From: Acidilobus saccharovorans 345-15
Lineage (GTDB): Archaea; Thermoproteota; Thermoprotei_A; Sulfolobales; Acidilobaceae
Assembly: GCF_000144915.1 (NCBI RefSeq)
Contig: NC_014374.1
Span: 496,001 to 560,000 of the forward strand
Length of the DNA: 64,000 nt
Direction: 5' to 3'
Numbering within the stretch: the stretch's first letter is position 1; every line of letters starts with the position of its first letter. A program made the position numbers and the translations under genes. The notes beneath the pieces are model-generated. The model made no database searches and was not told the origin of the DNA. It saw nothing but the letters and a program-made list of their open reading frames with translations. Below, piece by piece: positions 56,822 to 63,460 of the stretch.

Positions 56822-57502
56822 ATGTTGTCCATAACGCTTCAGCTGGCCATAACCTTAGCCCTGGCGGCGTGGGTTGGCGCTGTAGTCCTCTACATCTCAA
56901 AGGCCGTCTACAGGCTGTCCACCTCTCATGGACTTGGGGACCGCATATCAAGGTACATGGCTAGGAAGACGATACATATCCTGGGCGGCGGCCTGGTGGC
57001 CGCGCTGGTGCCCTTTGTCTACACCCAGCCGTGGATGGCGTTTGCCTCAGCCATGGCTCTGACTGGTTACATCTTCTACAGGAGGAGGAAGGGCTTAATG
57101 GCGTGGTTCCAGGAGCCCGATAACGCCTACGAGGCCCACTTCACCATAATGTGGGGCCTTGTCATACTCGCCTCCTGGTTCTTCGACCCAAGCATGGTGA
57201 TCGGGGCCGTCTCGGCGCTGTTCATGTCAGTCGGCGACGGCGTCACGGGGGTCGTGAGGGGCCTCAGGAGGGTCAGGGGCAAGGCGTGGTCGGGGACCAT
57301 AGCTATGATTGTCGTGTCGTCCCTCATAGGGGGCTACTTCCTCGGCCTTGAGGGGGTGGCGGCCGGCGTGGCGGCCTCCTTTGTGGAGAGGATAAACGGG
57401 GTCGACGATAACATCACCGTGCCCCTCGTCTCGTTCCTCCTGCTCCTGGCCATGAGGTACCTGCTACCGGCGGGCCTGGCTCACTTCCCTCCCAGGCTCT
57501 GA
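56822..57502 (+). CDS. Dolichol/phytol kinase-family membrane protein
   Basis: A 226-residue integral membrane protein with six to seven helices of the SEC59/VTE5 CTP-dependent polyprenol kinase family. Signatures are YMARKTIHILGGGLVAAL near the N-terminus, SVGDGVTGVVRG in the middle, and GKAWSGTIAMIVVSSLIGG after it. It may phosphorylate dolichol, geranylgeraniol or a related prenol for lipid or glycan synthesis, fitting the lipid cluster that follows on the other strand. It overlaps the convergent DHA2 gene by 22 bases. Confidence 0.87.
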   Translation: MLSITLQLAITLALAAWVGAVVLYISKAVYRLSTSHGLGDRISRYMARKTIHILGGGLVAALVPFVYTQPWMAFASAMALTGYIFYRRRKGLMAWFQEPDNAYEAHFTIMWGLVILASWFFDPSMVIGAVSALFMSVGDGVTGVVRGLRRVRGKAWSGTIAMIVVSSLIGGYFLGLEGVAAGVAASFVERINGVDDNITVPLVSFLLLLAMRYLLPAGLAHFPPRL

Positions 57503-59324: not shown

Positions 59325-60068
59325 ATGCTGCTGGTGGGCTGCTGCGGCTGGTGCCTGGGAAGGCAGAGGTATTACGCCAGCTTCAACGTCGTCGAGCTTC
59401 AGGACACGTTTTATGAAATGCCTGACGAGGGCAGGCTGAGGTCCCTGAGGGGAGAGGCGCCCGAGGGCTTCAGGTTCACAATGAAGGCGTGGCAGGCGGT
59501 CACCCACCCCCCTGGGGGCCCCACGTGGAGGAGGGCCAGGCACAGGGTACCTGAGGAGCTGGCGGACCGCTACGGCAACCTCAGGACAACAAAGGAGAAC
59601 CTTGAGGCGTGGGACGTGATCGCCAGGGCCGCGAGGGCCCTCGGGGCCTCAGTGGTGGTGGTCCAGACCCCTCCGGGCTTCGGGGCCTCGGAGGACAACG
59701 TGAGGCAGGCAGCGGAGTTCTTCAGGGCCGTGGCAACGAGGGACTTCACGATAGGGTGGGAGCCCAGGGGCACGTGGCGCTCAAGGCCGGACCTCATAGC
59801 TAAGGTCATAGGGGACCTTGACGGGGTCATACACGTGGTCGACCCATTTAGGGCCAGCCCTGCCGTCGAGAGGCCTGTTGTCTACTTCAGGCTCCACGGC
59901 ATAGGGGGCGGGGAGGTCAACTATAGGTACAGGTACACGGACAACGATCTTGAGGCGCTCTGCAACAAGGTCAGGGGGCTCAGGGAGGCCAGGGAAGTCT
60001 ACGTTATGTTTAACAACGTCTTCATGAAGGACGACGCCTCGCGCTTCAAGTCATTGTGCGCGGTCTAG
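59325..60068 (+). CDS. DUF72 family protein
   Basis: A 247-residue TIM-barrel protein of DUF72. It opens with LLVGCCGWCLGRQRYYASFNVVELQDTFYE, then EGFRFTMKAWQAVTHP, TIGWEPRGTW and VVYFRLHGIG, ending with EVYVMFNNVFMKDDA. These strands are all typical. The family's activity is unknown. ATG 59325 is chosen. The divergent DHA2 promoter precedes it, and it overlaps the convergent CDP-alcohol phosphotransferase gene by four bases. Confidence 0.92.
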   Translation: MLLVGCCGWCLGRQRYYASFNVVELQDTFYEMPDEGRLRSLRGEAPEGFRFTMKAWQAVTHPPGGPTWRRARHRVPEELADRYGNLRTTKENLEAWDVIARAARALGASVVVVQTPPGFGASEDNVRQAAEFFRAVATRDFTIGWEPRGTWRSRPDLIAKVIGDLDGVIHVVDPFRASPAVERPVVYFRLHGIGGGEVNYRYRYTDNDLEALCNKVRGLREAREVYVMFNNVFMKDDASRFKSLCAV

Positions 60069-60643
60069 CCTATCGACCTCTTGACGTGAACGGACCTCTG
60101 GATCACTGTGGCGGCGGCCAGCACGGCCACTACCGCCATTATTATGTTGTCCACGAGCAGCTGCCTGAGGAGGAGCAGCAGCGACATGACGAAGAGTATT
60201 ATAAGCCTCTCGCTCCTCTCGACAAGGCCTATGCCCTCCATCCTGACGTTGAGCAGCTCGCCCTTGGCCCTGGCGTAGCTTACCATGAGCGAGAAGGCGA
60301 GCGCTATCATGGTTATGTACTGGTTCACCCCGGCCAGGGCCATGGCCAGGAACAGGAAGGCGTCGCTGACCCTGTCGGTCACAGAGTCAAGGTAGGAGCC
60401 GAAAGCCGTGGTCCTCCCGGAGGCCCTGGCGACGGCCCCGTCAAGGACGTCCATGAGGCCTGCCAACAGTATTAGGAACGGCAGCATTATGAGCTTGCCC
60501 AGGTAAACCGCGAGGGGCGCCAGGGCGGAGAGGGCGAGGCCCGTGTAGGTGAGCTCGTCAGGGGTCACGCCGGCCTTATAAAGGGCCTTGCCCACGGTCG
60601 TCGGCGCCACGGAGTTAACGAACTTCCTCAGCTTGCCGAGCAA
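60065..60643 (-). CDS. CDP-alcohol phosphatidyltransferase, probable archaetidylinositol-phosphate synthase
   Basis: A 192-residue membrane enzyme with about six helices. The full CDP-alcohol phosphotransferase signature is present: D65-x2-D68-G-x2-A-R-x8-G82-x3-D86-x3-D90. Archaeal members link CDP-archaeol to inositol-1-phosphate (AIP synthase), glycerol-phosphate or serine. Size and the neighbours (glycosyltransferase, deacetylase) favour the inositol branch, which is inference. It is the last gene of the cluster and starts seven bases after the deacetylase stop. Confidence 0.87.
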   Translation of the reverse strand: MLGKLRKFVNSVAPTTVGKALYKAGVTPDELTYTGLALSALAPLAVYLGKLIMLPFLILLAGLMDVLDGAVARASGRTTAFGSYLDSVTDRVSDAFLFLAMALAGVNQYITMIALAFSLMVSYARAKGELLNVRMEGIGLVERSERLIILFVMSLLLLLRQLLVDNIIMAVVAVLAAATVIQRSVHVKRSIG

Positions 60644-60649
60644 GTGCTC

Positions 60650-61393
60650 TCACCTGCCGCCCGGCTGAGCCAGCGCCCTGAAGTTAATATTGCCAAGGAG
60701 CGAGGGCGCCTCACTCATAGTCATGGGCCTGTAGCCCCTCCTAACCATGTAGCTCACCGCGTTCCTCAGGAGCCCGAGGAGCCTTGGGCCCGTGCCGACC
60801 CATATGTCGGGCCTCCAGTGCACCACGCCTGAGACCTCCCAGGGGTGCACGAAGAGCGTGGTAACCCTGGGCATCAGGGCCAGCAGGGGCCTCTGGAGGG
60901 CCCACGGCACGCGCAGCACGCTGCTCGTCACCGTGGCCGGGACCCTGACCACGCCGCCCTCAACAGTGAGGCCCCGCGGGAAGGGCGGCTTGTAGGAGGC
61001 CAGGCTGGCGTCAACGCTGACCCCCTCCTCCCTGAGGACAGGCAGGAGCTGCCGGGGCAGCTTAAGGTTGGGGGCCCTGAATGACTTGACCTCACTGAAG
61101 TCCCTGAGGACCCTCAGCGACCTCCTCACGTCGTCCTCGGCCTCCCTGAGGGGGACCCTGTCAAGCCTTACGTGCGCGTAGCCGTGGCTTCCAAGCTCGT
61201 GGCCCCTTTCAATTATGTTGTAGACAGCCCTTGGGTGCCTCTCGGCCACCCTGCCAACCACGAAGAACGTGGCCCTCACCTTAAGCTCGTCCAGCAGCTC
61301 CAGCAGCCTGGGCAGGCCCTCGACGATGCCCCTCTCAGTGTTCATGTACGGCGGGGCGTCCTGCTCCACGTCTGACGACAGGAACAATGCCAT
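60650..61393 (-). CDS. Polysaccharide deacetylase (NodB-type) family protein
   Basis: About 247 residues with the NodB fold. Motif 1 is SSDVEQD (D8), and motif 2 is SHGYAH (H70 and H74, metal ligands). RAPNLKLP gives motif 3, and VSVDASLASY follows. It removes acetyl groups from N-acetylated sugars. ATG 61393 with GAGGTCA upstream is preferred over ATG 61408; the open frame to 61543 is shadow of the glycosyltransferase gene. It overlaps the end of that gene by 59 bases, so the two are strictly coupled. Confidence 0.87.
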   Translation of the reverse strand: MALFLSSDVEQDAPPYMNTERGIVEGLPRLLELLDELKVRATFFVVGRVAERHPRAVYNIIERGHELGSHGYAHVRLDRVPLREAEDDVRRSLRVLRDFSEVKSFRAPNLKLPRQLLPVLREEGVSVDASLASYKPPFPRGLTVEGGVVRVPATVTSSVLRVPWALQRPLLALMPRVTTLFVHPWEVSGVVHWRPDIWVGTGPRLLGLLRNAVSYMVRRGYRPMTMSEAPSLLGNINFRALAQPGGR

Positions 61394-62630
61394 CGGCTGA
61401 CCTCTCATGGTACTCCCACTTCCTCCCCCTGCACCACTCGCCCTCCTTAACGGGATCCCCCGTGAGGGCCCTGTAGAGCCTGTAGGCCAGGAACCTCCTG
61501 TCGTCGCTGCACTTAACCTCCTCGGCCCTCCGGTACTCCTCAACGTACCTCCTGGCTATTATACTGCAGTCGAAGAGCCTTGCCCTGTCCTCGGCGCCCC
61601 TTGCAAGGTCCCTCCTGAGGCCCTCGTCGCTGGCAACCCTTACTATGGCATCCGCCATGGCCTCAGGTCCATCAGCTATGATGCCGCTCCTGCCGTCCTC
61701 AACCAGGTCTAGGACGCCCGGGCTACTGTAGACCAGCGGCGGCACCCCGAGCGCCATGGCCTCAAGGACGGCTATGCCGAAGGACTCCCTGTAGCTTGTC
61801 AGGACGAAGGCGTCAGCCCCAGAGAGAAGCTGCGCTACTCTCTCCCTGGGCATGAGCCCCAGGACCTTCACCCTGTCCTCAACCCCGAAGCCCCTGAGCG
61901 ACTCCACGAGGTCCCTCATGAGCATGCCGTCGCCGACCACGTAAAACCTAGCCCTGGGGAGCTTCCTGGCCACCAGGGATGCCACCTTGGCTATCTCAAG
62001 GGGGTTTTTCCTCGGCGACAGCCTGGATGTTATAACTATGGCCGGGTCCCCGTCAAGGTGGGACCAGGTGGCCATCTCCCTCCACGAGTCGACGTCTATG
62101 CAGTTATGTATTACGTCCGCCGGCCTCCCGCTGATCCTTGAGACGTCCTCGGCCGCGGCCCTTGACACGCCCACCAGGAGGGTGGGCCACTTGAGCGCGT
62201 ACTTGAGGGACAGCCTGCCCAGGCCCTTCAGGGAGCCGCTGAGGAGCGAGTGGTTAGTGAGCACTGACGGCACGCCGGTTCCCCCGCTGGCTATCATTGA
62301 GGTCATGAGGCCCAGCACTGAGGTCACGCCGTGGGCGTGAACTACGTCGACCGCGTTCCTCTTGACGAAGAGCGACGCCTTCGCTATTACAAGCGGGTCA
62401 TAGGTGACGTCGTCCTTGGCCAGGAGGCGGGTCCCGATCCAGTAGACCAGGTAGCCGTCGCCCTTGACGAGGCCCGGCGGGCCCCTGTAGGAGCTGTTCT
62501 CATGAGTTACAACCATCACCTCGTGGCCCAGCCTGCCCAGGGCCTTGGACAGCTCGCTTATGCTGGTCTCGACCCCTCCAACTCTTGGAGGGAACCAGTC
62601 GCTGACCATTGCAATTCTCAGCGTCTCCAA
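61335..62630 (-). CDS. GT4 glycosyltransferase resembling PIG-A/PimA
   Basis: A 431-residue GT-B, family 4 enzyme. It opens RIAMVSDWFPPRVGGVETSI, continues with VVHAHGVTSVLG and LTNHSLLSGSLK, and has the donor-site E-x7-E (E282, E290) in YRESFGIAVLEAMALG. The GGVE, HAH and TNHSL spacing is close to PIG-A, the enzyme that adds GlcNAc to phosphatidylinositol, and to PimA. The last 70 residues are an extra tail running into the deacetylase gene. Donor and acceptor are inferred: UDP-GlcNAc or GDP-hexose onto archaetidylinositol. Confidence 0.88.
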   Translation of the reverse strand: METLRIAMVSDWFPPRVGGVETSISELSKALGRLGHEVMVVTHENSSYRGPPGLVKGDGYLVYWIGTRLLAKDDVTYDPLVIAKASLFVKRNAVDVVHAHGVTSVLGLMTSMIASGGTGVPSVLTNHSLLSGSLKGLGRLSLKYALKWPTLLVGVSRAAAEDVSRISGRPADVIHNCIDVDSWREMATWSHLDGDPAIVITSRLSPRKNPLEIAKVASLVARKLPRARFYVVGDGMLMRDLVESLRGFGVEDRVKVLGLMPRERVAQLLSGADAFVLTSYRESFGIAVLEAMALGVPPLVYSSPGVLDLVEDGRSGIIADGPEAMADAIVRVASDEGLRRDLARGAEDRARLFDCSIIARRYVEEYRRAEEVKCSDDRRFLAYRLYRALTGDPVKEGEWCRGRKWEYHERSADGIVPVVRRGAGRPAVHEH

Positions 62631-63460
62631 CTCCCTGCGCCCCTGGCCTGCCTGAGCACGCGGTAGCTCCCGGTCACGACAAGCACAATAATGCCCGCTA
62701 TGCTTGGCATCACCGTGTCCACAAGCCTGATGGACACCAGGAACAGGACAGCTAGCCCCACGGGATACCCCATGAACTTCAGCGCACCTATGACCCCTAA
62801 GTCAAGGAAGCCCAGGGCCGCCGGGGTCGGCGCCGCGGACGTGACCCTGAGGATGACGTAAAGCAATATAAGGTCAAAGAGCGCAAGGTAGAGGCCGCTC
62901 ATGAGGGCCACGAGCCACACCTTAATGACGTCTATGGCTATTATGGCAGAGCTCACGGCCAGGTAAGTTGCCATAAGCCTTCGGTCCCTGGACAGGAGCC
63001 TGAAGGCCTTGACCAGGTCCCTGACGGCTGACTTAACCGTCATGCCCTGGGGCTGGCCCGCCGCCACTGCTACAAGGGTGAGGGCCGCGGCGCCGAGCGC
63101 GTAGTGCCTTATTATCACAGCCAACAGCAGAAACGAAATTATTAGGCCCTCGGCGACCCACTCGACGGCAGCCGCCGCCATAACTGACGTCCTCTTGCCC
63201 TCCTTGACGTCAAGGTATGCTATTCTGAACGCCTCCTGGGCCGCCTTGCCCGCCGGGAGCAGGTTGCCCAGGGGAAAGCTGGCCACTATTGCGCCGAGCG
63301 ACTGAAGGTAGCTGACCCTGACGCCCAGGTACTTTAGCCCGGCCCTCCACCTCAGGGCCCAGAGCAGCGTAAGAACAACGTTTATCAGCGATCCCACTAG
63401 GACGGCGTAGCCCACCTCCTTAAGGTCGCTGAGTAGCGCCGTCAGCGAGAGGTCTAGCAA
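62618..63460 (-). CDS. UPF0104 (AglD/YbhN-like) flippase-type membrane protein
   Basis: A 280-residue membrane protein with six to eight helices of the lysylphosphatidylglycerol-synthase TM family. Signatures are LRWRAGLKYLG, FPLGNLLPAGKAAQEAFRIAYL, AAAAVEWVAEGLIIS, and PTPAALGFLDLGVIGAL. Archaeal relatives include the membrane part of AglD. It could move or present the glycolipid made by the next genes. The start is TTG 63460, since no ATG or GTG lies upstream in frame. It overlaps the glycosyltransferase by 13 bases. Confidence 0.85.
   Translation of the reverse strand: MLDLSLTALLSDLKEVGYAVLVGSLINVVLTLLWALRWRAGLKYLGVRVSYLQSLGAIVASFPLGNLLPAGKAAQEAFRIAYLDVKEGKRTSVMAAAAVEWVAEGLIISFLLLAVIIRHYALGAAALTLVAVAAGQPQGMTVKSAVRDLVKAFRLLSRDRRLMATYLAVSSAIIAIDVIKVWLVALMSGLYLALFDLILLYVILRVTSAAPTPAALGFLDLGVIGALKFMGYPVGLAVLFLVSIRLVDTVMPSIAGIIVLVVTGSYRVLRQARGAGSWRR

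Follow-up and report, generated by a model that had tools for sequence, protein, structure and literature searches.

A run of four minus-strand genes in the genome of the archaeon Acidilobus saccharovorans 345-15 raises the question of which molecule its products would build. The stretch analyzed here (the window) is 64,000 nt of that genome, which is a single contig of 1,496,453 bases, and the run extends from position 63460 to 60065 of the window, encoding in this order a UPF0104 membrane protein, a GT4 glycosyltransferase, a NodB-family deacetylase and a CDP-alcohol phosphotransferase. A first-pass annotation had read these genes as a route resembling the early steps of glycosylphosphatidylinositol (GPI) synthesis. 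The conserved unit is the trio UPF0104-GT4-NodB, and not the foursome that includes the CDP-alcohol phosphotransferase. The trio very probably makes some form of aminosugar membrane lipid. With less assurance, though as the reading that we favor, archaetidylinositol would receive an N-acetylhexosamine from GT4 at the cytosolic face, NodB would deacetylate this sugar and UPF0104 would move the product outward.

All four open reading frames (ORFs) were present on the minus strand where they had been placed, and they overlap or abut as described. The UPF0104 gene (62618..63460) overlaps the GT4 gene (61335..62630) by 13 nt, and a gap of 6 nt separates NodB (60650..61408) from the CDP-alcohol phosphotransferase gene (60065..60643). 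The overlap of 59 bases originally given for GT4 and NodB corresponds to the alternative NodB start, ATG 61393, while a start at ATG 61408 lengthens it to 74 nt. The N-terminus from ATG 61408 aligns better with two Acidilobus orthologues, whose overlap with GT4 is 71 nt, and because of this comparison position 61408 is preferred.

The survey looked for NodB orthologues in 197 genomes of the class and read the surroundings of 28 loci, the window's own included; a further 49 loci on named contigs have a NodB score above 250 bits and were used for the GT4-NodB order, and 44 loci for the position of UPF0104. The order UPF0104-GT4-NodB was the same in 25 of the 28 loci. On the named contigs, GT4 stood directly 5' of NodB in every one of the 49 loci and overlapped it in 47, and UPF0104 was the gene immediately 5' of GT4 in 35 of 44. 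Besides Acidilobaceae, the trio occurs in Pyrodictiaceae, Thermococcus, two Thermodesulfobacteria metagenome-assembled genomes (MAGs) and MAGs labelled DPANN and DHVE2, some of these loci lacking UPF0104, and since the order recurs in many genera the arrangement is not due to chance. The neighbors of the trio change freely, and those read in Acidilobaceae MAGs and in Thermococcus, among them a radical SAM protein, look unrelated. Just three genomes, all of the genus Acidilobus, have the CDP-alcohol phosphotransferase and a myo-inositol-1-phosphate synthase next to the trio; the former was hence rejected as a member of the conserved unit, and the linkage of four genes as one unit did not survive the neighborhood survey. 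The UPF0104 gene had been noticed in the run, but its place in the conserved unit had been overlooked. Trees of NodB and of GT4 gave the same main clades save for one partner swap in the Thermococcales (L190 (G224), L192-L196, L216-L218), where T. kodakarensis- and Pyrococcus abyssi-type loci pair a Thermococcus-type NodB with a GT4 of the clade that lacks NodB.

Some other loci are recorded here in their own right. Contigs of Thermodesulfobacteriaceae/Thermosulfurimonas MAGs (L076, L091) carry the trio or the GT4-NodB pair, by horizontal transfer or mis-binning. In T. onnurineus (G226:C1:756501-756845) a second trio-like copy has a NodB frame broken by stops, next to an open GT4 frame (755300-756487). 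Hermodarchaeota relatives of NodB (153-173 bits) had no adjoining GT4 and were left out of the count; on one Hermodarchaeota contig (L111, 7148-11110) a NodB relative, a GT2-like protein and a CDP-alcohol transferase-like gene lie within 4 kb.

The GT4 protein (PF13439 and PF00534) is a predicted retaining N-acetylhexosaminyltransferase that would act on an archaeal phospholipid. Its EX7E motif (E282/E290), the donor-phosphate residues R203/K208, H98 and the GG loop are invariant in 24 relatives, and hydropathy revealed no transmembrane or signal segment. The structural model, with a predicted local distance difference test (pLDDT) score of 91, has a GT-B fold; motif, donor-phosphate residues and fold together place the protein in the retaining GT4 family. 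The first-pass annotation had called for a structural comparison with PIG-A and PimA, and the best matches of the model were BshA and MshA, followed by PimA. BshA and MshA are UDP-N-acetylglucosamine (UDP-GlcNAc) enzymes, MshA transferring GlcNAc onto inositol phosphate, and PimA is a phosphatidylinositol (PI) mannosyltransferase. As a fold match from a predicted model, this would support a GlcNAc-type reaction on an inositol lipid.

The NodB protein scored 66.3 bits on PF01522 (cut-off 23.1) and is the only clear NodB gene in the whole genome. Across 21-25 orthologues the residues D8-V-E10-x-D12, H70xxxH74, FRAPN, D128 and HPWE are kept, so that the catalytic and metal residues are conserved. 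The Asp, HxxxH, R-x-P and late His of CE4 enzymes are all present, motif 1 being a DVE variant rather than TFDDG. The model (pLDDT 94) adopted the fold of CE4 deacetylases, with ArnD (8t0j) at rank 21. ArnD acts on a lipid-linked sugar, namely an undecaprenyl-phosphate sugar. Neither a transmembrane nor a signal segment was seen in the hydropathy profile of NodB, and the enzyme is predicted to be cytosolic; this feature, shared with GT4, is consistent with both reactions occurring on the inner side of the membrane. The UPF0104/LPG_synthase_TM protein, a flippase-like member of the MprF N-domain family, was recognized by PF03706 (64.2 bits, cut-off 33.4), TIGR00374 (46.6 bits, cut-off 43.2), about six strongly hydrophobic segments and its position upstream of GT4.

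On the evidence of its sequence, the fourth gene is an archaetidylinositol phosphate synthase (AIPS). The protein scored 183.4 bits on NF040950, a small margin over the cut-off of 180, whereas on the next model, that of phosphatidylinositol phosphate synthase, it reached 126 bits and stayed below the cut-off of 170; the nearest solved structures are the phosphatidylinositol phosphate synthases 6h53 and 5d92. The CDP-alcohol phosphotransferase signature had been reported as intact, and reading of the translation bore this out, as DVLDGAVARASGRTTAFGSYLDSVTD matches D-x2-DG-x2-AR-x8-G-x3-D-x3-D. A search with PF01066 returned one match in the whole genome, the AIPS gene. Since AIPS is the sole CDP-alcohol transferase of this genome, inositol would be the only phospholipid head group that this enzyme family can supply here. 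The myo-inositol-1-phosphate synthase (PF01658, 98 bits) is encoded at genome positions 561,286-562,464, on the minus strand like the trio, 1.8 kb upstream of UPF0104 and 1.3-2.5 kb past the end of the window, and this upstream position is kept in the three Acidilobus genomes (e.g. L002 13287-14465). A TauE-type transporter gene and a short-chain dehydrogenase/reductase gene separate it from UPF0104; both belong to ordinary families, occur at that place only in Acidilobus and were not counted as members of the system. Also rejected was a membrane ORF at 56822-57502, described earlier as a nearby dolichol-kinase-like gene: it has no match in Pfam even with E relaxed to 0.5 and lies on the other strand with two other genes between, and such a gene is a neighbor of the trio at no more than 2 of the 28 loci.

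The pathway that we favor would run as follows. AIPS would make the phosphate precursor of archaetidylinositol from CDP-archaeol and the inositol phosphate provided by the nearby synthase. GT4 would then attach an N-acetylhexosamine in alpha linkage, the sugar probably being GlcNAc donated by UDP-GlcNAc, to the cytosol-facing archaeal phospholipid, the most likely acceptor in Acidilobus being archaetidylinositol. Still on that side of the membrane, the soluble NodB would remove the acetyl group, leaving a cationic hexosamine, and UPF0104 would carry the completed lipid across to the outside. The data show what the genes are, AIPS included, their catalytic motifs, the conserved order and overlap, and that the genome has no second CDP-alcohol transferase; we infer which sugar is donated and to what acceptor, in which order and on which side of the membrane the steps take place, and that the product is flipped. 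The chemistry first proposed, comprising an inositol lipid, GlcNAc addition and deacetylation, is thus plausible in view of AIPS, the inositol-1-phosphate synthase, the NodB residues and the UDP-GlcNAc-type fold, but its GlcNAc donor and archaetidylinositol acceptor keep a provisional standing.

Published lipid profiles allowed genotype to be compared with phenotype. The GT4-NodB pair is present in T. kodakarensis (2,088,737 bp), near 776-778 kb of the chromosome, and in T. barophilus (2,010,078 bp). In the former, Hex(NH2)-PI-archaeol and Hex(NH2)-PI-glycerol dialkyl glycerol tetraether (GDGT) were assigned (PMC3906577), and the aminosugar lipid accounted for 41-42% of the lipids in one study (PMC7356043); the latter contains PHexHexNH2 together with N-acetyl forms (PMC9294538), which would give indirect support to a product made by way of an N-acetyl intermediate. 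P. yayanosii (1,716,818 bp) is without NodB, and its lipids include PHexHex and lack PHexHexNH2; the lipids of P. furiosus likewise lack PHexHexNH2 (PMC7356043). Aeropyrum pernix (1,669,696 bp) and A. camini (1,595,994 bp) keep a related GT4 and have no NodB, and in A. pernix alpha-glucosyl-archaetidylinositol makes up ~91 mol% (PMC9878630). Genotype and lipid are consistent with each other in these species, and Thermococcus, a carrier of GT4-NodB, has a published hexosaminyl-inositol (or hexosyl) phospholipid.

Two sets of NodB-less loci may be of use in their own right. The UPF0104-GT4 pair without NodB in the P. yayanosii and P. horikoshii genomes (L217 7302-9357, L218 6871-8920) may serve to make plain hexosyl phospholipids, and the GT4 of A. 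pernix (L223 7662-8840; G031), found at genome positions 1,300,670-1,301,779 and likewise without NodB, is a candidate glucosyltransferase for archaetidyl(glucosyl)inositol.

Several points weigh against archaetidylinositol as the acceptor and against the pathway built on it. The species names given to the Thermococcus, Pyrococcus and Aeropyrum genomes are identifications that we assume, and the comparison of genotype with lipid covers few species. UPF0104 is not adjacent to GT4-NodB in T. kodakarensis, our literature search found no lipid data for Acidilobus, and the donor cannot be read from the sequence. Outside Acidilobus, 167-245 kb separate NodB from AIPS in the genomes that have both on one contig (G009, G046, G084, G093, G099, G167); as the link between AIPS and the trio is confined to Acidilobus, acceptors could vary from lineage to lineage. 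A first alternative, which we regard as a minority possibility, keeps the module and its chemistry and changes the acceptor to archaetidylglucose or a glycosyl-archaeol/GDGT, so that the adjacency of AIPS in Acidilobus would be coincidental or mere co-regulation of head-group genes. The confinement of the linkage to one genus agrees with it, as does a fourth genome of that genus, an incomplete MAG whose AIPS has an unrelated neighbor and in which no match to NodB was found. The amino lipid of T. barophilus was assigned as PGlc-hexosamine, its inner sugar being glucose and not inositol (PMC9294538), and the bacterial HexSDF system acts on hexosyl-diradylglycerol (PMC10128005). The T. kodakarensis assignments, however, place the hexosamine on PI (PMC3906577), the sugar of A. 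pernix sits on inositol (PMC9878630), and the Acidilobus genome holds no CDP-alcohol transferase other than AIPS.

Less probable still is a role of the trio in building a polyprenyl-phosphate-linked sugar for glycosylation of S-layer protein or polysaccharide, in which GT4 would extend, NodB would trim the acetyl group and UPF0104 would flip. UPF0104 corresponds to the C-terminal domain of AglD, and glycosylation roles were proposed in a 2015 arCOG study (PMC5898192). GT4 gave weak matches to Agl16 and to Pgl enzymes, and NodB resembles ArnD. The Agl16 score, however, was 72.5 bits against a cut-off of 575, no oligosaccharyltransferase, polymerase or further glycosyltransferase was seen beside the trio, whose neighbors vary, and among species whose lipids have been reported, NodB is present where aminosugar phospholipids are. 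As for true homology with GPI synthesis, in which a PIG-A-like GT4 would belong to an early pathway ancestral to eukaryotic GPI, the steps from PI through GlcNAc-PI to glucosaminyl (GlcN)-PI are conceivable and GT4 has a weak score on the PIGA Pfam model, but that score (21.1 bits, cut-off 27) is below threshold, a match of any strength came from just 2 of 17 relatives, no PIG-L/LmbE gene (PF02585) was found in the genome and the deacetylase folds are unrelated, which makes this origin highly improbable. PIG-A homology of GT4 was thus rejected; the PIG-A-like motifs once reported are generic GT4 motifs, and the term GPI-like can be retained as an analogy.

With these alternatives weighed, a wider formulation of the hexosaminyl-archaetidylinositol reading has, in our estimate, about even prospects. 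According to it, the trio would be the hexosaminyl-archaetidylinositol phospholipid set of archaea, joined in Acidilobus to AIPS and near inositol-1-phosphate synthase; its GlcN-PI route would have evolved independently of GPI, using NodB; presence or absence of NodB would decide between a glucosaminyl (Thermococcus) and a glucosyl (Aeropyrum) inositol lipid; and one NodB lineage would have been re-paired with two GT4 lineages. Genes for head-group synthesis in archaea are known in small number, and our literature search found none assigned to the step that glycosylates or aminates archaetidylinositol, glucosaminyl-archaetidylinositol included. If the proposal is true, the trio and AIPS would account for the inositol lipid with an amino sugar that has been observed in archaea for a long time, the enzymes for which are apparently unassigned so far. 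Since a conserved gene set is linked here to a lipid making up ~42% of the extract of T. kodakarensis, a genetically tractable species, the question is directly testable. The trio is also a possible genomic marker for cationic aminosugar lipids and, if the acceptor is inositol, would represent an independent route to a glucosaminyl-inositol phospholipid, the head group with which eukaryotic GPI anchors start.

Comparison with known systems places the trio among several precedents. The early GPI steps (PI synthase, PIG-A complex, PIG-L) share with our proposal an inositol lipid, GlcNAc addition and deacetylation. The trio differs in having a single soluble glycosyltransferase that is not PIG-A by profile, a deacetylase of another fold (NodB is a CE4 barrel and PIG-L has the LmbE fold) and an adjacent flippase-type gene, and nothing in it points to steps that would add mannose or attach a protein. 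MshA/MshB and BshA/BshB likewise combine a GT4 fold using UDP-GlcNAc (MshA on inositol phosphate) with a subsequent deacetylase, but their products are soluble thiols and their deacetylases belong to the LmbE family, while PimA acts on PI and gives mannosyl-PI. The context of arCOG00899 (UPF0104), arCOG01403 (glycosyltransferase) and arCOG02876 (polysaccharide deacetylase) was already noted in 2015, for example in Methanosarcina acetivorans MA0797-MA0798 (PMC5898192). As described there, the likeness is one of gene context, and the role given was glycosylation, without product or lipid.

Closest in parts list are two bacterial operons that the first-pass annotation had missed; the trio shares with them a set of adjacent genes for a glycosyltransferase, a deacetylase and an MprF/UPF0104-type membrane protein. 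In Clostridioides difficile, hexSDF (transferase, polysaccharide deacetylase and MprF-like flippase) yields aminohexosyl-hexosyldiradylglycerol (PMC10128005); its synthase resembles monogalactosyldiacylglycerol synthase and its acceptor is a glycolipid, whereas the archaeal trio has a GT4 and, we infer, a phospholipid acceptor. In Pseudomonas aeruginosa, gpgSDF (GT4, deacetylase and UPF0104) yields glucosaminyl-phosphatidylglycerol and was reconstituted in E. coli (PMC12713373). Like the trio, GpgSDF comprises a GT4 synthase, a cytosolic deacetylase and a UPF0104 flippase, with a proposed order of GlcNAc transfer, deacetylation and flipping and a cationic GlcN-phospholipid as product; its acceptor is phosphatidylglycerol, as against probably archaetidylinositol, and its deacetylase is of COG3233, as against PF01522/NodB in a trio ordered flippase-GT-deacetylase. 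The window NodB matched PF01522 only, and a Thermococcus relative reached 19.1 bits (cut-off 26) on DUF2334, which we take to be the Pfam counterpart of COG3233, the GpgD-type deacetylase. On the GpgS model NF053787, GT4 scored 38.1 bits against a cut-off of 480, with 21 of 24 relatives matching at E below 1e-10. Judged by such comparisons, the trio enzymes are not orthologous to those of GpgSDF or HexSDF. By analogy, a parts list proven in both operons would support the proposed function, and the same recipe of transferase, deacetylase and flippase would serve archaeal ether and bacterial ester lipids by means of different enzymes.

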